From contig NC_007503.1 in the NCBI RefSeq assembly GCF_000012865.1, forward strand, positions 682,001-746,000: 64,000 bases of DNA. Reading direction: 5' to 3'. Source of the DNA: Carboxydothermus hydrogenoformans Z-2901. Lineage in GTDB: Bacteria > Bacillota > Z-2901 > Carboxydothermales > Carboxydothermaceae. Below the pieces are notes generated by a model. That model made no database searches, was not told the origin of the DNA, and worked only from the letters and a program-made list of their open reading frames with translations. Of the stretch, positions 2,329 to 37,625 are shown in pieces. Position 1 is the stretch's first letter, and each line of letters opens with the position of its first letter. A program made the translations under genes and the position numbers.

Positions 2329-3911
2329 AGTTAAGCCAAACAATGCAGAATAGTGCAATAATACTTACTCAGCAATGGATGAGGTTAATTTTACAAAATT
2401 GCAAGCGTGGTGAAAGCCGTGAAGCAAATCATAACAATCCAGGCAAGGTTATACCCAAAGGCGGAGGAGAAAGAGGTATTAGATAACTTAATGCGAAAGT
2501 GGAACTCCTGTAAGAGATATGCTTATAACCGCCTACTTGAAGGGAAAACCCGAAAAGAGCTCAAGAAAGAACTGCAAAGCCTATTTGGATTGAATTCCAG
2601 ATATGCAGACGATGCTATTCTTGAAGCTAACGAAATTTTGCAAAGCACCAAAGAACTTGGAGAAAACCCACGCAAGGTTATCTTTGGCGGGAAAGTATTG
2701 TTTTATAGACTAAAAAGCAAACATTTAAGCAGTGAGCAGAGGCAAAAGTACAAAAAAGAGTGGGAAGATAAGCGCAAAGGAACCCTTTTCTCCAGAGGGG
2801 ATAAAACCAAGCAGGGGAATTTAAATTTAAGAGTTATTGAAGAAAATGGCCAATTCTTTTTAAGAGTAAATGCAGGTAATAGAAAATGGCTGTTTATAGA
2901 ACTTAAAAGTTCGCATAAAAAATGGAGAAAGTTTGCAAAAACAATGCTAAATTCCTGTCCTTACAGCGTTCGTTTGCAGAGGAAAAACAATAAATACTAT
3001 GCTTACATTTCTTTTGAAGATAACCTACCTGTTGCATCAATAGATTTCAGCAATGGAGCTATCGGGATAGACTTAAATGCTTTTCCATCACACATAGCCT
3101 GGGCTGAAATAAAAAAAGACGGCAATTTAGAAAGCTTTGGAGAAATCCCCACACCACATCTCTGGGACGGGAGAAAAGAAAAAAGAGATTACTTTGCATG
3201 GGTATATGCCAACGAAATTGTAAAATTAGCCCTTGAGAAAAACAAAGGCATCGTAGTAGAAAAGTTAGCGATAAAAGACAAAGGCTACCGGGGAGATTAC
3301 AAGGGAAGAAAATCCAGAAGGGTAAAACACAGTTTTAGCTATAGAAAGCTTATTGCCAGAATAAAGACCCTTGCCCAGAGGTACGGTGTAGCCATAAGAG
3401 AAGTAAGTCCAGCTTATACAAGCGTGATAGGAATGCTAAAGTATGCACCACAATTCAACCTAACAAAAGATACAGCAGCAGCCTATGTGATAGCCCGAAG
3501 AGGATTGGCTTTAAGGGAGAAAATTCCCTTGAAGTATAGAGAGCTTTTGAAAAGCCTGCAAAGCAAGTCACGGTCGGTATCTTCATTAACCGAAGGAAGG
3601 AATGAAGGTACTGCGGTAAAGGGGAAAACCTTACCGTACAAACCGTGGCGAGTTTTGCGGGTAGCCCTCCTGACCGGAGCTCTCCTGGGCAGGCCATTAT
3701 ATCGTGACCTGTCACCGCTGAAGAGGATGCTCGTAAGCGGTATGGGAGAAGGTGGCTGAATGGCCACGGCCAGTTCCTGCTTCTTGGGGCAGGGGCTATG
3801 GCTGTCCCAAATACCGCCAGTTGGGGCTGGGGCAGTCTGAAAGGCGGACAACAAATACCCCAACCTTCTAAACTGATGCAGTTTTGCACAGTTTGGATGA
3901 CCAGGTTTGCA
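2329..3911 (+). mobile_element. TnpB-only IS200/IS605-type insertion inside the cobalamin operon
   Basis: The stretch between cblS and cobA holds only a tnpB-like gene and flanking non-coding DNA with several hairpins; there is no tnpA transposase. The boundaries are deduced, not seen as repeats: if 2329-3911 is removed, AGGAGG (2316-2321) falls 7-8 nt before the cobA ATG at 3912, an ideal spacing. TnpA-less elements of this kind (IS1341 type) are moved in trans by a Y1 transposase and make no target duplication, which matches the absence of direct repeats. Confidence 0.55.
2407..3759 (+). CDS. TnpB-like RNA-guided nuclease (IS605 OrfB family), zinc finger absent
   Basis: A 450-aa basic protein. 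Three RuvC-like acidic positions are visible: D in GIDLNAFP (about residue 218), E in IVVEKLAIKD (about 283) and D in NLTKDTAAAY (about 360). The four-cysteine zinc ribbon that normally lies between the second and third motifs is missing: the segment reads YTSVIGMLKYAP instead of TS..C..CG. The C-terminal 80 residues are an unusual low-similarity tail. TnpB proteins use an RNA from the 3' end of their own gene as guide. The start is GTG at 2407 or 2410 with no clear ribosome site. Catalytic residues look intact, so it is not obviously one of the nuclease-dead derivatives. Confidence 0.75.
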   Translation: MVKAVKQIITIQARLYPKAEEKEVLDNLMRKWNSCKRYAYNRLLEGKTRKELKKELQSLFGLNSRYADDAILEANEILQSTKELGENPRKVIFGGKVLFYRLKSKHLSSEQRQKYKKEWEDKRKGTLFSRGDKTKQGNLNLRVIEENGQFFLRVNAGNRKWLFIELKSSHKKWRKFAKTMLNSCPYSVRLQRKNNKYYAYISFEDNLPVASIDFSNGAIGIDLNAFPSHIAWAEIKKDGNLESFGEIPTPHLWDGRKEKRDYFAWVYANEIVKLALEKNKGIVVEKLAIKDKGYRGDYKGRKSRRVKHSFSYRKLIARIKTLAQRYGVAIREVSPAYTSVIGMLKYAPQFNLTKDTAAAYVIARRGLALREKIPLKYRELLKSLQSKSRSVSSLTEGRNEGTAVKGKTLPYKPWRVLRVALLTGALLGRPLYRDLSPLKRMLVSGMGEGG

Positions 3912-9527: not shown

Positions 9528-10420
9528 TGGCCTTCCTCCTTGGATGCGGTAAATTTTCGCACTAATAAAATTAAACCTAACGCAATAAGTAGCAACACAA
9601 AGGCCATTAAAAAGAGAGCATTATTCCATGTGGAATTAAAGGCCGTATTTCCCATTTCCATCACAATTTCCGAAGTCAGGGTGGCAGTAGGTTGAAACAG
9701 GGAACGGGGGAAAAGAGGTGTATTGCCAATAACCATTTGCACGGCCATTGTTTCCCCGATAGCCCTTGCCATTCCTAAAACTAATCCGGTGATAATTCCC
9801 GGCGCTGCTGCCGGCAGGAGAACATGCCAGATGGTCTGCCAGCGGGTTGCCCCCAGGGCATAAGAAGCTTCTTCTAACGACCGGGGGACCGACCGCAGAG
9901 CATCTTCGGCAAGGGATAAAACCGTGGGTAAAATCATTATAGCTAAAATAATTCCGGCTGCCAGCAACCCAAAGCCGTTTTGGTTGGGTGAGATTTGGCG
10001 AATTGCTGGAACAATAATTGTAAGGCCAACCCAACCGTAGACTACTGAAGGAATACCTGCCAGTAAATCTACTACTGTGCGCAAATATCCCGTCAGCCAG
10101 GAAGGAACTATTTTCGCCGAAAACATAGCACCGGCTATACCTAAAGGCCCACCCAGCAGAAGAGCTAAGAGGGTTACGAAAAAGGAACTGCTGATAAACG
10201 TAAGAGCTCCAAACTGGTTTTGGTCGGGAGCCCATTTTGTACTGCCGAAAAACTCCAAAGGACTGACGGCTAAAAAAGTTTTTAACCCCTGTTTACCTAC
10301 AAAAACAACAATAGCTGCTATGGTAAAACAAACTACCATAGCAGTTAGAAAAAAGATATATTGAATTAAAAGCTCTTGCTTTTTTCTAAGCACTACTATA
10401 AACCGCCTTTCTATGTTCAT
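9524..10420 (-). CDS. pstC: Phosphate ABC transporter permease PstC
   Basis: A 298-aa permease with six hydrophobic segments. PstC hallmarks are LLAGIPSVVYGWVGL and the EAA loop EDALRSVPRSLEEASYALGATRWQ. The annotated ATG at 10420 has no ribosome site; GTG at 10393, preceded by AAAGGCGG, gives a start closer to typical PstC proteins and is an alternative. It lies 5 nt after pstS. Confidence 0.92.
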   Translation of the reverse strand: MNIERRFIVVLRKKQELLIQYIFFLTAMVVCFTIAAIVVFVGKQGLKTFLAVSPLEFFGSTKWAPDQNQFGALTFISSSFFVTLLALLLGGPLGIAGAMFSAKIVPSWLTGYLRTVVDLLAGIPSVVYGWVGLTIIVPAIRQISPNQNGFGLLAAGIILAIMILPTVLSLAEDALRSVPRSLEEASYALGATRWQTIWHVLLPAAAPGIITGLVLGMARAIGETMAVQMVIGNTPLFPRSLFQPTATLTSEIVMEMGNTAFNSTWNNALFLMAFVLLLIALGLILLVRKFTASKEEGH

Positions 10421-10425
10421 ACGGT

Positions 10426-11289
10426 TTATTTCATTTTACTTATCGATAAGAAGCCCAATTTTTCCACGTAGTTATTTTGAAATTCATCGCTTAAAACAAA
10501 GTCCAGGAAATCTTTTACCACACCGGTAGGCTCACCTTTCGTATACATGTGTTCATAGGCGTATAAGGTATACTTTTTGTTATAAACGTTTTCGGGAGTG
10601 TACTCTACCCCATTATATTTTAACACTTTTACCGAATTATCGATATATGCTGCATCAATATAGCCAATTGAACCGGGGGTTTGAGAAATTGCTTTTCGCA
10701 CCGCTCCGTTGGAGTCCTGAATTATTGCTTTATCGGTAAATTCTTTGCCATCTAAGACGAGGTCGGTGATTACTTTGCGCGAACCGGAAGATTTTGCCCG
10801 GTGAATAATGGTGATTTTGGCGTCATTGCCGCCAACTTCTTTCCAGTTGGTAATTTTACCGGTAAAGATATCTGCTAACTGTTCTTTAGAAAGGTTATCC
10901 ACCTTAACATCAGGATTGACGATGATCACGAAAGGAGCAACCGCAACTTGATGGTCAACTAAACCTTTACCCGCAGTTTCAGGGTCTTTTTCGGCATCGA
11001 CATCGCTATTGCCGATATCTACCGCACCTGCAATTACCTGTCTGAGTCCTGTAAAAGAGCCTCCTCCAGAAACATTCACGGTAACTTTGGGATTTTTCTC
11101 CATGTACAAGGTAGCTGCTTGTTTGGCTAAAGGCAAAAGGGCGGTAGAACCGGCAAGGGTGATCTTACCTTCCTTGGTAGTTTGCCCGTTTTGCGGGGTA
11201 GCTTGCTCATTTTTTTTAGCACAACCTCCAGCAAAAAGCAAAGCCACCACCAGGATGCTGATAATCGCTACAATTCCATACTTTTTCAT
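10426..11289 (-). CDS. pstS: Phosphate-binding lipoprotein PstS
   Basis: A 287-aa extracytoplasmic phosphate-binding protein. A lipoprotein signal peptide ends in the lipobox LFAGGC (Cys about residue 23). Binding-site segments ITLAGSTALLPLAK, GGGSFTGLRQV and HRAKSSGSRKV (which supplies the Ser/Arg ligands of phosphate) are clear. It captures phosphate at the cell surface and delivers it to PstCA. AGGGAGG lies upstream of the start. Confidence 0.93.
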   Translation of the reverse strand: MKKYGIVAIISILVVALLFAGGCAKKNEQATPQNGQTTKEGKITLAGSTALLPLAKQAATLYMEKNPKVTVNVSGGGSFTGLRQVIAGAVDIGNSDVDAEKDPETAGKGLVDHQVAVAPFVIIVNPDVKVDNLSKEQLADIFTGKITNWKEVGGNDAKITIIHRAKSSGSRKVITDLVLDGKEFTDKAIIQDSNGAVRKAISQTPGSIGYIDAAYIDNSVKVLKYNGVEYTPENVYNKKYTLYAYEHMYTKGEPTGVVKDFLDFVLSDEFQNNYVEKLGFLSISKMK

Positions 11290-11366
11290 CTTTTTTCCTC
11301 CCTGGTTTTAAAATTTTCTTGTCTTTAATATAACCGGTAAATGTTATTTTTTTTCGAGCAGGAAAG

Positions 11367-20064: not shown

Positions 20065-20112
20065 AAAAATAGTTCAGAGCAATTATGCCCATTATAAAGG
20101 AGGGAATTGGAC

Positions 20113-23100
20113 TTGGCCATTACCCGAAGAGAATTCTTAAAACTATCAGCTTTATCCACTGCTATATTAATGACTGCCGAGCTTGGCTTAGATAATAGTA
20201 AAGCTTATGCGCAGGCCCAAAAGTACCGGATCAAAACTGCCAAAAAAACTCCAACCTTGTGTCCTTTTTGCAGTGCCGGCTGCGGTATGCTTGCCTATAC
20301 CGATACCAAAACGGGAGAATTACTTTATGTGGTCGGGGATCCGGACCATCCGGTAAACCGCGGCGGTGCGTGCAGTAAAGGAGCTTCAATATACCAGATT
20401 AGGAACATTGCGCCCGGTAAACCCAATCCCAAAAGACTTACCAAGCCTCTTTATCGGGCTCCGGGGAGCAAAGAGTTTAAAGAGGTTACCTGGGAATGGG
20501 CAATTTCGGAAATTGCCAAACGAATTAAAGATACGAGGGATCGGACTTTTATAAAAGAGGAAGACGGAATAACCGTCATGCGTACCGACCATATTGCTTG
20601 TTTGGGCGGTGCAGCTCTGGATAACGAAGAAACCTATCTTTTACAGAAATTGATGCGCGGACTTGGGGTAGTATATATTGAACATCAGGCCCGGCTCTGA
20701 CACAGTTCTACGGTTGCCGGTCTGGCACCAACCTTTGGTCGTGGAGCTATGACCAATCACTGGATAGATTTAAAAAATACCGACTGTGCCTTAATTATTG
20801 GCGCTAACCCCTTTGAAAACCACCCGGTTTCAGCCAAGTGGTTAATGGAAGCAAAATTAAAACGGGGAGCTAAAATCATAAGTGTTGACCCCAGATTTAC
20901 CAGAACTTCTTCGAAGGCAGATATTTATGCTCCTTTGCGAGCGGGGACCGACATTGCCTTTATTGGCGGCATGATTAACTATATCTTAGAAAATGAGCTG
21001 TACGACCACGATTATGTCGCAAATTATACCAACGCTTCGTTTATAGTTCACGATGACTATAAATTTACCGATGGCTTATTTAGCGGGTACGACCCCAGGG
21101 AGCGTAAGTATGATTTTTCCACCTGGGAGTATAAGAAAAATGAAAAGGGGGAAATTGAAAAAGACCCTACCTTAAAACATCCGCGGACGGTATTTCAACT
21201 TTTAAAGCAACATTTTTCCCGCTACACTATCGACAAAGTATGCGAAATTACCGGGACACCCAGAGAAATTTACCTTGAAGTCATCAAAACCTTTGCCGAA
21301 ACTTCCCAGAAGGGTAAGTCCGGTACGATTATGTATGCTATGGGAGGAACTCAGCACAGTTGCGGTTCCCAAATAGTTAGAAGCTATGCCATCTTACAGC
21401 TTTTATTGGGCAACGTGGGTGTTCCCGGAGGCGGAGTAAATGCTCTTAGAGGGGAATCTAACGTTCAAGGTTCTACTGACTTTGGCTTATTAAGTAATAA
21501 TATTACAGGTTATATTAATAGTCCTATTGCTCAGCCAGAACATAAGGACTTAAAAGCTTACTTGGAGAGTGAAACTCCGAAAACCGGCTTTTGGAGCAAT
21601 AAGCCGAAATTTTTTATAAGCTATTTAAAAGCAATGTATTATGATAAAGCTACCAAAGAAAACGAATTTGGTTATCAGTGGTTCCCCAAAAGACATCCGA
21701 AGAAAAACTACACTTATATCGGCTTATTTGAAAACCTGGCTAAAGGCGAAATAGAGGGTATGTTACTTTTTGGTCAAAACCCCATTGTGGGCGGGCCGAA
21801 CTCCAACCGGGAAAGGGAAGCTTTAAAAAATCTTAAATGGATGGTAGCGGTAGACCTTTTTATGACGGAAACAATGCGGTTCTGGACAAAGGAAGCGGGA
21901 AGTAACCCTGAGGAAGTCCAAACCGAAGTTTTTGTTTTGCCGGCTGCTGCGTCCTTTGAAAAGCAGGGCAGCATCACTTCTTCCGGCCGGTGGATTCAGT
22001 GGCGCTGGAAAGCGGTCGAACCGCTTGGGGAGTCAAAGGCTGACCTTGATATTATTCACATGCTCGCTTTGGAATTAAAGAAACTTTATGCCAGTAGTCA
22101 AAGACCGGAAGATGAGCCTATTAAAAATCTTTACTGGAATTACGGTAACACTAACGAATGTGATATCGACCGTGTAGCCCGGGAGATTAATGGCATAGAT
22201 CTTACCACCGGAAAACAGGTGGAAAACTTTTTAAAGCTTGCTGATGACGGCAGTACCCTTTGCGGAAACTGGATCTTCTCGGGCTTTTATCCAGAAGCCG
22301 GAAACCTGGCCCAAAGAAGGGAGTTGGAGGATCCCAGCGGCCTTGGCCTTTACCCCAATTGGACCTATGCCTGGCCGTTAAACCGGAGAATACTCTACAA
22401 CCGGGCTTCGGCGGACCCATCGGGCAAGCCGTGGCATCCGGATAAGGCGGTTATCTGGTGGGATGAAAGCCAGAAAAAGTGGGTTGGTTATGATGTTCCC
22501 GATTTTAAAGCAACAATAGGTCCCGATGATCCGGCTTTTGTCAATCCCTTTATTATGCAAACCGATGGCAAAGGCTGGTTATTCGTCCCTCAGGGCAAAT
22601 TAAAAGACGGACCGTTCCCGGAACACTACGAACCCTGGGAAAGCCCGGTGCAAAACTTGCTTTCCTCGGTCCAAAACAACCCGGTAATTAAAATTTGGCG
22701 GCCGGAAGAACAAAGTGATGCTCAAAATTATCCCTATATAGCCACAACCTACAGGGTATCCGAACACTGGCAGGCAGGGGCGATGACCAGGAACCTGCCC
22801 TGGCAGGCAGAATTAGTTCCGGAAATGTTTGTGGAAATTGGGGAAGAACTGGCCCGGGAACTGGGGGTAAAATCCGGGGACGAAGTAATCGTTGAAAATA
22901 AACGGGGCTCTATCAAGGTAAAAGCTTATGTTACCAAACGGATGAAACCGTTAATGGTAAATGGCATAAAGCGGCATCAGGTAGGTTTGCCCTGGCACTT
23001 TGGTTTTGAAGGTTTAGTTACCGGAGAAATTGCCAATAAACTTACTCCTTATCTGGGGGATGCCAATACCATGATTCCCGAATACAAGGGGTTCCTGGTC

Positions 23101-23121
23101 AACGTAAGGAGGGCTAAATAA
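20113..23121 (+). CDS. fdhA: Formate dehydrogenase-N-type catalytic subunit, selenocysteine-containing
   Basis: One gene of 1002 codons with an internal UGA (20698-20700) read as selenocysteine at residue 196. The flanking protein, EHQARL-Sec-HSSTVAGLAPTFGRG, is the active-site signature of FdnG-type enzymes. Tat signal TRREFLK lies at residues 4-10, so the folded enzyme is exported. [4Fe-4S] cysteines are CPFCSAGCGM plus GGACSKG. It oxidises formate to CO2 with a bis-pterin Mo or W cofactor. I chose TTG at 20113 because AGGAGGG sits 8-9 nt upstream; TTG at 20107 is too close. The C-terminal domain (about 870-1000) is the usual molydopterin-dinucleotide binding barrel. Without recoding it would be called as two broken genes. 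Confidence 0.95.
20698..20733 (+). promoter_or_regulatory. Bacterial SECIS element of fdhA
   Basis: UGA followed after 11 nt by the stem-loop GGTTG-CC / GG-...-CAACC (20712-20733) with apical loop GGTCT, the loop sequence known from enterobacterial formate dehydrogenase SECIS elements. It would bind SelB with Sec-tRNA. Confidence 0.85.
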
Positions 23122-29589: not shown

Positions 29590-29735
29590 CAAAAAAATAA
29601 GCTGCTCCGAGTATTTTCACCTAAAGCTTTAGGCCATGGTGAAAATACCAAAGGGTACTACCGGGAAACCGGGGTGCCTCCCGTTTTGGAAAGGAGTTAT
29701 CAAAGCGCCTTTTTAAAACGGGGCGCTTTTAATTT
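29590..29735 (+). promoter_or_regulatory. Probable Moco/Tuco riboswitch upstream of moaA
   Basis: The fdhD-moaA gap holds a compact RNA-like structure: an 11-bp stem GTATTTTCACC/GGTGAAAATAC (29611-29621 with 29638-29648), then GGTAC-TA-CCGG-GAAA-CCGG-G-GTGCC with a GNRA tetraloop, then CTCCC...GGAAAGGAG. GGAAAGGAG after a GAAA-capped stem resembles the Moco RNA motif. A hairpin AAGCGCC.../GGGCGCTTTT (29704-29730) just before the moaA ribosome site could be the expression platform. The assignment is from memory of the motif and not from a covariance model. Confidence 0.6.
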
Positions 29736-29750: not shown

Positions 29751-30716
29751 ATGCTTGATTCTTTTAACCGGGAAATAAACTATTTGCGGATTTCGGTTAC
29801 CGACAAATGTAACCTTAACTGTTTTTACTGTAAACCCGGAAATTTTCAAGAATTTTCGCCGGGAGATATTTTAACCTTTGAGGAAATTTTAGAAGTAGTC
29901 CGGGCCTTTTTACCCTTGGGTTTAAAAAAAGTACGGATTACCGGCGGCGAGCCATTGGTTAGAAAAAATCTTTTATATTTAATTGAAAATATTGCAGCTT
30001 TACCGGGTATTGATGATTTAGCCCTCACTACCAACGGTATCTTGTTTCCCCGCTACGCTCGAGATTTAAAAAGTGCTGGGCTTTCGCGGGTAAACTTTAG
30101 CCTTGATAGCTTGAATCCGGACAAATTTCGCTCGATTACCGGCGGCGGCGAGTTAAAAAATGTGCTGGAAGCCATTAATCTTGCCCTGGAATTGGACCTT
30201 ACTCCGGTAAAAATAAATACGGTTTTATTACGAGGTATTAATTTAGACGAAATCGATGCTTTCGTGGATTTTATCTTTCGGTATCCGGTGCACTGGCGGT
30301 TTATTGAGCTTATGCCATTAAATGACCGGGAAAAGTGGCAGCGGCAATTTGTTTCGGTGAAAGAAATTGTGGAAATCATCTCAGCCAAGTACAAACTAAT
30401 TCCGGGGAAAACGGTGGGTGGCGCAGGGCCGGCCCGCTATTATGAAGTGCCGGAAGCATTGGGAACGATTGGGGTAATTTCTCCCCTGTCCAATCATTTT
30501 TGCGAATACTGTAATCGCCTCAGGCTTACCTCTACCGGTAAGTTAAGGCTTTGTTTGGCCAAAAACCAGGAAGTTGATATAAAAAGCCTTTTACGGTCCG
30601 GGATTTCGCAAGAGGAGTTGACCGGAGTTTTGCGGGAGGCAATTTTAAGAAAACCCAGGGCCCATGAGTTTGGCGATAAGGACTTTTTAGGAACAATGGC
30701 CAACATAGGAGGTTAA
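29751..30716 (+). CDS. moaA: GTP 3',8-cyclase MoaA
   Basis: A 321-aa radical SAM enzyme that starts molybdopterin synthesis by rearranging GTP. The N-terminal cluster motif is CNLNCFYC, the C-terminal substrate-binding cluster is [10 protein letters not shown]...LRLC, and the protein ends in a conserved di-glycine (ANIGG). TGGEP-type segment ITGGEPLVR is present. AGGAGG precedes the ATG. Confidence 0.95.
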
Positions 30717-34463: not shown

Positions 34464-34550
34464 TATGGATTAAAAACATAATAGTTGACAGGATTAGTAG
34501 GAATTAATATAATGGGTTTAGAAGGACAATACTAAAATGAGGTGATTTTA

Positions 34551-35471
34551 ATGCGAATTTATGAGGATATTACCCAGCTTATCGGCAAGACCCCGTTATT
34601 GAAATTAAAAAGAGTTACCAGAGGTGTGAAAGCAACAGTTGTGGCCAAGCTTGAGTATTTTAACCCGGGAGGTAGTGTTAAGGACCGTATCGCGTTTAAC
34701 ATGATTAAAGCTGCTGAAGAACAGGGGCTTTTAGATAAGGATACCGTCATTATTGAGCCTACTTCTGGCAATACCGGGATTGGCCTTGCGATGGTGGCCG
34801 CAGCCCGGGGTTATCGTTTAATTATTACCATGCCCGAAACCATGAGTGTGGAGCGGCGAATGCTTTTAAAAGCATACGGGGCGGAAATAGTTCTGACTCC
34901 CGGAGAGCTTGGGATGACCGGTGCGGTAAACAAAGCTCTGGAACTGGCTAAAGAATTTCCCAAAGCTTTTATTCCGCAACAGTTTGAAAACCCGGCTAAT
35001 CCGGAAATCCACCGGAAAACAACGGCAATAGAAATCTGGGAAGATACTGATGGTCAGGTGGATATTGTGGTTGGTGGTGTTGGGACCGGAGGTACCATTA
35101 CCGGAGTAGGAGAGGTTCTTAAAGCCAAAAAACCGGAAGTAAAAATTATAGCGGTGGAGCCGGCAGATTCACCGGTATTATCGGGAGGAAAACCCGGCCC
35201 TCATAAAATTCAGGGAATTGGTGCGGGTTTTGTACCTAAAGTATTTAACAGGGACGTGGTGGATGAGATTATTCAGGTAGAAAGTGATGATGCTTTTGCT
35301 ATGGCTAAAAAAATTGCAAAAGAAGAAGGGGTACTGGTGGGGATTTCTTCCGGTGCGGCTCTCTGGGCAGCGTTAGAAGTGGCCAAAAGACCGGAAAATG
35401 AAGGGAAACTTATCGTGGTTGTCTTACCCGATACCGGCGAACGTTACCTGTCCACACCCCTGTTTAGCTAA
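34551..35471 (+). CDS. cysK: Cysteine synthase A
   Basis: A 306-aa PLP-dependent O-acetylserine sulfhydrylase. The PLP lysine lies in [14 protein letters not shown]; the phosphate-binding loop is [21 protein letters not shown] and [10 protein letters not shown] are present. It makes cysteine from O-acetylserine and sulfide. I chose ATG at 34551 because GAGGTGA lies 5 nt upstream; the in-frame GTG at 34542 is within that site. Confidence 0.95.
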
Positions 35472-35501: not shown

Positions 35502-35993
35502 ATGGAGTGTGATATCATTACTACTGATTACGGTTATGTAGCCATTGCAGTTTCGGAGAAGGGGGTTTATGCCGTTTCCCTTCCTAAAGCTACTCCGAAA
35601 GCTGCCTTAGAGGAAATCGGCGTAGAGGTAAATCCTGTAAAATCCGAATTATTTTGTCGAACTGCCGAATTATTAAAGCGCTATTATGCCGGGGAGAAAG
35701 TGGATTTTTCTTCCTTGCCCCTTGATATAAGCTGGGCTTCGCCTTTTGCCCGCAAAGTCTATGAAAAGCTTCGAAAAATTCCCTACGGGGCAACCGTTTC
35801 CTATGGTGAATTAGCAGGTCTTTCGGGAAACCCGAAAGCGGCCCGGGCGGTAGGACGGGCCATGGCCACCAACAAAATTCCGGTAATAATCCCCTGACAT
35901 CGAGTCCTGGCTGCCGGCGGCGGCCTGGGAGGATTTGCCGGGGGACTATCTTTAAAAGAAAAAATGCTTAAAATGGAAAAGCAGGCGTTATAA
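35502..35993 (+). CDS. ogt: O6-alkylguanine-DNA alkyltransferase with selenocysteine in the active site
   Basis: A 163-aa alkyltransferase if UGA at 35895-35897 is read as selenocysteine (residue 132). The family active site IPCHR appears as IIP-Sec-HRV, followed in frame by a normal C-terminus (GGGLGGFAGGLSLKEKMLKME) and TAA at 35991. Upstream the DNA-binding helix region (PYGATVSYGELAGLSGNPKAARAVGRAM) is also normal. The enzyme moves the alkyl group from O6-alkylguanine to its own Cys/Sec and is used once per repair. A stem-loop follows the UGA at the same 11-nt distance as in fdhA. A premature stop would remove the catalytic centre, so recoding is the simplest reading. Sec-containing forms may already be known from selenoproteome surveys; I cannot confirm this here. 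Confidence 0.88.
35895..35925 (+). promoter_or_regulatory. Candidate SECIS element of ogt
   Basis: After UGA and 11 nt comes GGCTGCC-GGC-GGCGGCC (35909-35925), a 7-bp stem (one G-U) with a G-rich apex. The spacing equals that of the fdhA element; the loop is not the same, which is usual for Gram-positive SECIS elements. Confidence 0.65.
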
Positions 35994-36005
35994 CCTGCTT
36001 TTTAT
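35978..36005 (+). terminator. Terminator of ogt
   Basis: Stem AAAAGCAGG/CCTGCTTTT around the TAA stop of the read-through ogt frame, followed by T-rich DNA. Its location at the downstream TAA, not at the UGA, supports read-through as the real gene end. Confidence 0.75.
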
Positions 36006-36326: not shown

Positions 36327-37625
36327 ATGAAACGCACCAACGTCGTCCGGGTTCTTCCAGATAAACTGCAGAAGCAAGTTCTGGAGACCATTGGGGACCG
36401 CTGTGCTGCCCTCTGGAACGCCGTCCAGTACAGGTGCAGGCAAGCGTTCTTCAAGGGAGAATCTGTGCCCTCCTATGCCGCCTTATGCTCCGAGTTCAAG
36501 GAGCACCCAGCATATAAAGCCCTGCCCGCTCACATGGGGCAGGAGATCATCAAAAAAGCAAGGAAGGCGTGGGACTCCTACTTTGCCTGCCTGCGGTTGT
36601 ACCGGAAAGGCGAACTGGAGAAGCCGCCGCACATACCCCGCTACTGGAAGGACCGCCGCACGGGAAAGCGCATATTCCGCGTCATTCCCGTCAAGGCACC
36701 TACGTCCTACTCCCTGGATGCTCGTTATCTCTCCCTCACACTGCCGCAGGACCTCCGGAAGGGGCGGGGAGATCGCTTGGTCCTGCGCACGAAGGGTGTC
36801 CTGCGCTTCCACGGCAGACCTAAAACCCTGGAGCTTAAATATGACCCGGTAAAAATCCGCTGGTATGCCCATCAGGTAGTGGAGGTGCCGGAGCCAGCAA
36901 GAAAAGCCCGGCCCGAAAAGCATGCCGCCATCGACCTGGGTGTGAGGGTCCTGGTCGCCTTAGCCGTCGAAGGACTCAACCGCCAATTCCTTTTCTCCGC
37001 CCGCGAAGTCATCAAGGACTTCCTCTACTGGACCAATCAGATTGCAGGGGAGCAGTCGAGGCTCAACCGGGCAGGAAGGAAGACCTCCAGGAGGCTGAAG
37101 AGGCTTTATCAGCTCCGTGCCCGCAGGCTCAGGCACGCCTTTGTTGCTTTGGCTGCAAAAATTGTCCGCATTCTTAAACGGCTTCGTGTAACCACGCTAT
37201 TTCTCGAAGACCTGAGAGGCATTCGGGAGACCATGGACTTCGGGCCGAAGAACCTTCTGGTGCACAACTTCTGGGCCTTCCGCATGTTGAGGAACCTTAT
37301 CGAAGCTGCCTGCACTCGGACCGGGATAAGGGTAGTGCCGATGGAGCCGCGAGGGACCTCTTCCCGGTGTGCCGTCTGCGGTTCTTCTGTCAGGCGACCT
37401 GTGCGGCATAAAGCGGTGTGCGAGAAATGCGGTCGCGTCTGGCACGCCGATGCCAACGCGGCATTAAACATAATCCTTCAGGGCTCCTCGAAGGAGCACG
37501 GGGCGGAGGCTACGCCCTTAAAGCCGCTTGCCTTCCGGTGGAACCGCCACCGGTGGGTAAGCCGCTTCGAATCTGCCGCCGGTACGCCCTCTGGGGCGAC
37601 GAGCGGCAGCCGGATGGCGGCGTAA
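36327..37625 (+). CDS. tnpB: TnpB RNA-guided nuclease (IS605 OrfB family), complete
   Basis: A 432-aa TnpB with the full set of features: D in AAIDLGVRV (about 200), E in LFLEDLRGI (about 292), zinc ribbon CAVCG...CEKCG (about 351-372) and D in WHADANAALNI (about 380). The N-terminal helix-turn-helix and basic regions are typical. It cuts DNA next to a short transposon-adjacent motif when guided by its omega RNA. GC content is much higher than that of neighbouring genes. A TATAAT box lies 10 nt before the ATG. No tnpA accompanies it. Confidence 0.92.
   Translation: MKRTNVVRVLPDKLQKQVLETIGDRCAALWNAVQYRCRQAFFKGESVPSYAALCSEFKEHPAYKALPAHMGQEIIKKARKAWDSYFACLRLYRKGELEKPPHIPRYWKDRRTGKRIFRVIPVKAPTSYSLDARYLSLTLPQDLRKGRGDRLVLRTKGVLRFHGRPKTLELKYDPVKIRWYAHQVVEVPEPARKARPEKHAAIDLGVRVLVALAVEGLNRQFLFSAREVIKDFLYWTNQIAGEQSRLNRAGRKTSRRLKRLYQLRARRLRHAFVALAAKIVRILKRLRVTTLFLEDLRGIRETMDFGPKNLLVHNFWAFRMLRNLIEAACTRTGIRVVPMEPRGTSSRCAVCGSSVRRPVRHKAVCEKCGRVWHADANAALNIILQGSSKEHGAEATPLKPLAFRWNRHRWVSRFESAAGTPSGATSGSRMAA

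Follow-up and report, generated by a model that had tools for sequence, protein, structure and literature searches.

Does the UGA that interrupts the alkyltransferase gene ogt of Carboxydothermus hydrogenoformans specify selenocysteine (Sec), and if so, why would a repair enzyme that is used only once carry selenium at its acceptor site? The gene lies within the 64-kb stretch of genomic DNA analysed here (the window), and a sequence-only reading of that stretch had proposed that Sec takes the place of the suicide cysteine. Our comparisons support this proposal through the sel genes of the organism, purifying selection past the UGA, recurrence of the UGA form across families and a loop-and-helix element that is absent from Cys homologues. 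We consider it highly probable that the gene encodes a true selenoprotein form of Ogt, in which a SelB-inserted Sec132 would take up the alkyl group in a single step and the protein would then be spent.

The ogt frame and its genomic setting

When the UGA is read through, ogt (Table 1) is translated as MECD...VIIP-U132-HRVLAAGGGLGGF...KQAL-TAA, or, in fuller form, as MECDIITT...VIIP-U-HRVLAAGGGLGGFAGGLSLKEKMLKMEKQAL, then TAA. The sequence-only reading had seen a normal C-terminus continuing to the TAA, and this is borne out by the translation and by matches of the read-through protein to PF01035 (residues 81–160, E 4e-32, 110.3 bits against a cut-off of 27) and to TIGR00589 ogt (101.5 bits, cut-off 46.4); the N-terminal domain PF02870 is also matched above its cut-off. 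It had further placed the UGA exactly on the catalytic Cys of PCHR and advised alignment with Cys-type Ogt; in alignments to Mycobacterium tuberculosis Ogt (4wxc) and human AGT (1qnt) the UGA indeed occupies the alkyl-acceptor Cys column. Where a canonical Ogt has its acceptor Cys in PCHR, this gene has UGA, for which we propose Sec, the chalcogen analogue of Cys, and we propose that the gene is a Sec variant of Ogt, distinct from the canonical Cys enzyme. Membership of the alkyltransferase-like (ATL) group, in which Trp, Ala or another non-nucleophilic residue replaces the acceptor Cys, was considered and rejected, the codon being UGA and a Trp or Ala codon being found in 0/7 of the Sec genes described below. 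All seven Sec forms retain the active-site Asn at –8 from the acceptor, the His at +1 and the Glu near the C-terminus, which by alignment to 1qnt are equivalent to N137, H146 and E172 of human AGT.

Table 1. Features of the window that bear on the reading of ogt
Feature	Position	Strand	Remarks
fdhA, comparison element	20107..23121	+	UGA 20698-20700; Rfam SECIS_3 at 20695-20753
cysK (cysteine synthase A)	34542..35471	+	30 nt upstream of ogt, same strand
ogt (O6-alkylguanine-DNA alkyltransferase)	35502..35993	+	163 residues with UGA read as Sec132
Proposed Sec132 codon, in-frame UGA at alkyl-acceptor site (P-U-H-R)	35895..35897	+	also TGA in 6 other genomes
SECIS-like hairpin	35910..35924	+	6-bp helix 35910-35915/35919-35924, loop GGC 35916-35918
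Intrinsic terminator	35976..36003	+	stem overlaps TAA stop of ogt

No other PF01035 gene is present in the C. hydrogenoformans genome, so that a second, Cys-type Ogt can be rejected. The upstream gene, cysK, is probably co-transcribed with ogt and precedes the Sec-ogt of the congener G002 as well; at the other end of the gene the terminator is found at the TAA, where the sequence-only reading had put it. That reading had also named the sel genes as worth looking for, and all four are in the genome: selA and selB are adjacent, selC is a tRNA-Sec with anticodon UCA (TCA in DNA), and selD carries one TGA of its own in the context SCAG-U-AAKMSP. A read-through listing of the window yielded only fdhA and ogt as UGA-Sec candidates.

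Several further features were observed in the same DNA. Downstream of ogt, at a distance of about 330 nt, is a gene for a TnpB-family RNA-guided endonuclease (36327–37625, plus strand; NF040570, PF01385). Two TnpB-related ORFs, one in the window (2407–3759, plus strand) and one at L045 8594–9964, are 94% identical to each other, neither having a Pfam match at E 1e-8, and the L045 copy is about 200 nt from selC. A moaA-like radical-SAM gene (29751–30716) is closely preceded by a Moco (molybdenum/tungsten cofactor) riboswitch (29593–29712, plus strand, 77 bits).

Conservation and distribution of the UGA form

The Ogt of G002 is 79% identical to that of the window and has TGA at the same codon. 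Downstream of the UGA the two genes differ at 2, 0 and 14 sites in codon positions 1, 2 and 3, respectively (14 of the 16 differences being in the third position), with 2 of 30 amino acids changed, dN 0.03 and dS 1.25. The UGA stands in frame at the Cys of the homologues and the frame beyond it is conserved, and since the UGA is kept in the congener and the sequence after it is under purifying selection, sequencing error and pseudogene status are both rejected. In G001, the third species of the genus examined (94% complete genome), no Ogt was found, so that ogt is there either dispensable or hidden in an assembly gap.

We searched 399 genomes from the phylum with a DNA pattern combining P-UGA-H-R with the G...GF signature; it matched in 7 genomes of 5 families, against no match of a reversed-pattern control in the same genomes. 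On these counts a chance TGA at the acceptor codon is rejected, and chance is excluded also because the UGA is conserved in the congener and in four other families. All seven genes encode a full-length Ogt with a single UGA, and selB and tRNA-Sec are above cut-off in each of the seven genomes; six of these have no Ogt besides the Sec form, and G026 has an extra Cys copy elsewhere. A protein scan of further genome contigs gave as its sole match a Cys homologue from Leptotrichiaceae, and a pattern match on a viral contig (L056) was rejected as Ogt, being a short unrelated frame.

No additional Sec form came from searches of the families and orders to which G198 and G102 belong, and within its own family G198 is the only genome with the Sec form, the Ogt matches of other members lacking an in-frame TGA. 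The G198 gene (C91:4443, L049) clusters in the tree with the Sec-ogt of another family, which suggests horizontal transfer, or contamination. Three changes of the Sec label are needed on the tree of 37 Ogt proteins, which is unrooted and has long branches, and a topology that unites all Sec forms in one clade is rejected (p-AU 0.0046). Considering this rejection, recurrent conversion of Cys to Sec, or transfer, is likely. Sec-ogt apparently has more than one origin, the exact number being uncertain because of the long branches and the missing root.

The neighbourhoods of the Sec genes differ between lineages. In G026 (L047) a tag-like gene for methyladenine DNA glycosylase (10815–11327) comes directly after Sec-ogt (10196–10735), which fits alkylation repair; the two would form an alkylation-repair pair with one selenoprotein. 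Genes of the methionine gamma-lyase family occur near upstream of Sec-ogt in G102 and G374 (L075 3869–5068, L077 1315–2511). The presence of sulfur amino-acid PLP enzymes beside Sec-ogt in two lineages (cysK in one, methionine gamma-lyase in the other) is possibly due to chance.

The hairpin downstream of the UGA

With the U of UGA taken as 1, positions 16–21 pair with 25–30 around a three-base loop starting with GG in all seven Sec genes, the helix having six pairs in six of them and five in G026. The helix of the window's ogt starts 12 nt after the UGA, or 11 if a flanking G-C pair is counted, in agreement with the 11 nt given by the sequence-only reading. Within the element our search pattern had fixed only the G at 25–26. 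At least five pairs together with a GG loop are found in 7/7 Sec genes versus 0/36 Cys homologues, in which the helix alone occurs once and the loop alone five times (Fisher 9.7e-8, calculated with the first 30 Cys genes and ignoring relatedness). Two of the six helix pairs vary on both sides, one of them passing from C-G to G-C between lineages by way of amino-acid changes, and the covariation score was reached by 3 of 500 shuffles. Against a synonymous null the signal is weak: synonymous shuffles give equal pairing in about 12% of draws per gene (30% for G026), which makes the hairpin no more than moderately improbable for the encoded peptide. The best RNAfold structure contains the helix in four of the seven Sec sequences, with z = –1.56 for the window's copy. 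We regard the hairpin as good comparative support for a putative SECIS, not as proof of one.

The sequence-only reading had likened this stem-loop to that of fdhA, and the likeness holds in part. Like bacterial SECIS elements of the fdhA/fdhF type, the ogt hairpin is short and lies just past the UGA, and its loop residues G22–G23 are in register with those of fdhA in the same genome, a register that is presumably also that of Escherichia coli fdhF. The motif as a whole does not correspond: in contrast to fdhA, ogt has no bulged U17, its loop has three bases, and the Rfam SECIS models gave no match to it.

Proposed mechanism, alternatives and known systems

We suggest that SelB with Sec-tRNA-Sec, directed by the hairpin just past the UGA, would put Sec at residue 132, and that its selenolate, ionised already at neutral pH, would attack the alkyl group of an O6-alkylguanine flipped from the DNA. 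The alkyl group would be taken up in one step, as by the Cys of other Ogt proteins, and the protein would be spent thereafter. We infer each of these elements, from the insertion of Sec and the transfer of the alkyl group by selenium to the single turnover; single-step transfer to selenium appears to be the mechanism with the best support, because the Asn, His and Glu are kept, a glycosylase gene adjoins the G026 gene and the engineered human AGT variant C145U is active. By analogy with that variant, Sec-Ogt is predicted to repair O6-alkylguanine in DNA. Our guess is that Sec is favoured as a faster and less Asn-dependent nucleophile in anaerobes that already make several selenoproteins.

Alternatively, Sec-Ogt might turn over, passing its Se-alkyl group to a thiol or corrinoid, or might act on another substrate. 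A multi-turnover role would abolish the cost of one selenium lost per repair, the hosts of Sec-ogt are presumably anaerobes, and the C. hydrogenoformans genome is, we believe, rich in corrinoid methyl chemistry. However, the residues of the single-turnover enzyme have all been retained, neither an acceptor-protein gene nor a methyl-transfer gene is a common neighbour of Sec-ogt, and the neighbour in G026 is an alkyl-base glycosylase gene, so that we hold this reading to be highly unlikely. In its particular form, in which a thiol or corrinoid methyl acceptor strips the alkyl-selenide and Sec-Ogt is thereby recycled for multi-turnover O6-alkylguanine repair, we give the idea a slim chance; if true, it would account for the swap of Cys for Sec in more than one bacterial lineage.

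Another possibility is that the UGA is read as Cys or some other residue, for instance as Cys loaded by the Sec machinery under selenium shortage, and that the cell has an ordinary Cys Ogt as its working enzyme. Other organisms are known in which the Sec machinery places Cys at UGA, Cys is the residue of nearly all homologues and the neighbouring gene makes cysteine synthase, yet this reading still requires both the Sec machinery and a SECIS, and if Cys were wanted there would be no reason for the repeated retention of UGA over TGC or TGT; we consider it very improbable. That the UGA is a real stop, through nonsense mutation or sequencing error, and leaves a pseudogene or a truncated 131-residue protein seems to us scarcely credible: TGA is an ordinary stop here, ending 8 of the 36 long ORFs of the window (for which reason TGA as a general sense codon is also rejected), but the reading is largely refuted by the conservation of the same TGA in the congener and four other families and by the purifying selection downstream, and a truncated product would end one residue short of the nucleophile, without the acceptor and the C-terminal helix.

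The Sec-for-Cys reading of this family has a precedent in prediction. Accession ABB14497.1, which belongs to the C. hydrogenoformans genome, is very likely the ogt of the window, because that genome has one Ogt. It was supposed in the sequence-only reading that similar genes might be known from selenoprotein surveys, and such entries do occur in PMC9312934, PMC13188914 and PMC2398784. The first two give 'methylated-DNA-protein-cysteine methyltransferase' (AdaB/COG0350, PF01035) as a predicted prokaryotic selenoprotein, ABB14497.1, and credit the prediction to Zhang and Gladyshev 2007 (NAR 35:4952); the third counts one Sec versus 2,879 Cys sequences of the family in the GOS survey. As far as these entries go, the predicted family is that of the window's ogt, and the Sec-for-Cys site is the same by implication. 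The 2006 list of C. hydrogenoformans selenoproteins was still without Ogt (PMC1794560), and our literature searches found no test of any native Sec-Ogt. Sec-Ogt is therefore already known as a prediction, to which we add its multi-family distribution, its apparently multiple origins and a comparison of the SECIS region between Sec and Cys genes; the recurrence in five families, the origins, the neighbours and the SECIS comparison are all absent from the published table rows.

Selenoproteins are, with few exceptions, catalysts, chiefly of redox reactions, and a single selenium atom in them takes part in many turnovers; a stoichiometric repair protein that uses up one selenium per lesion would depart from this pattern. 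The apparently repeated conversion, usually in a genome that has no other Ogt, points to a genuine benefit. With natural Cys and Sec forms to compare within one family, the question 'why selenium?' can be put to a direct test for alkyl transfer, and self-labelling tags might usefully be developed from natural Sec-Ogts.

Finally, in comparison with known systems, Sec-Ogt shares with the Cys-type Ogt/Ada-C/MGMT proteins (TIGR00589; PDB 4wxc, 1qnt, 1sfe) the fold family, the DNA-binding domain and the active-site Asn, His and Glu, and differs from them in having Sec for Cys and, at the gene level, a GGN-loop hairpin after the acceptor codon, found in 0/36 of the Cys type. Its closest engineered counterpart, human AGT C145U, has Sec at the same alkyl-acceptor position and functions in DNA repair when produced in E. 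coli, which it protects from MNNG (PMC4150793). In that construct Sec is specified by a UAG codon with EF-Tu and without a SECIS (PMC4150793), whereas native Sec-ogt has UGA and a SECIS-like hairpin. Moreover, Sec at position 145 of human AGT makes Asn137 dispensable (PMC4150793), yet the corresponding Asn is kept in the natural Sec-Ogts.
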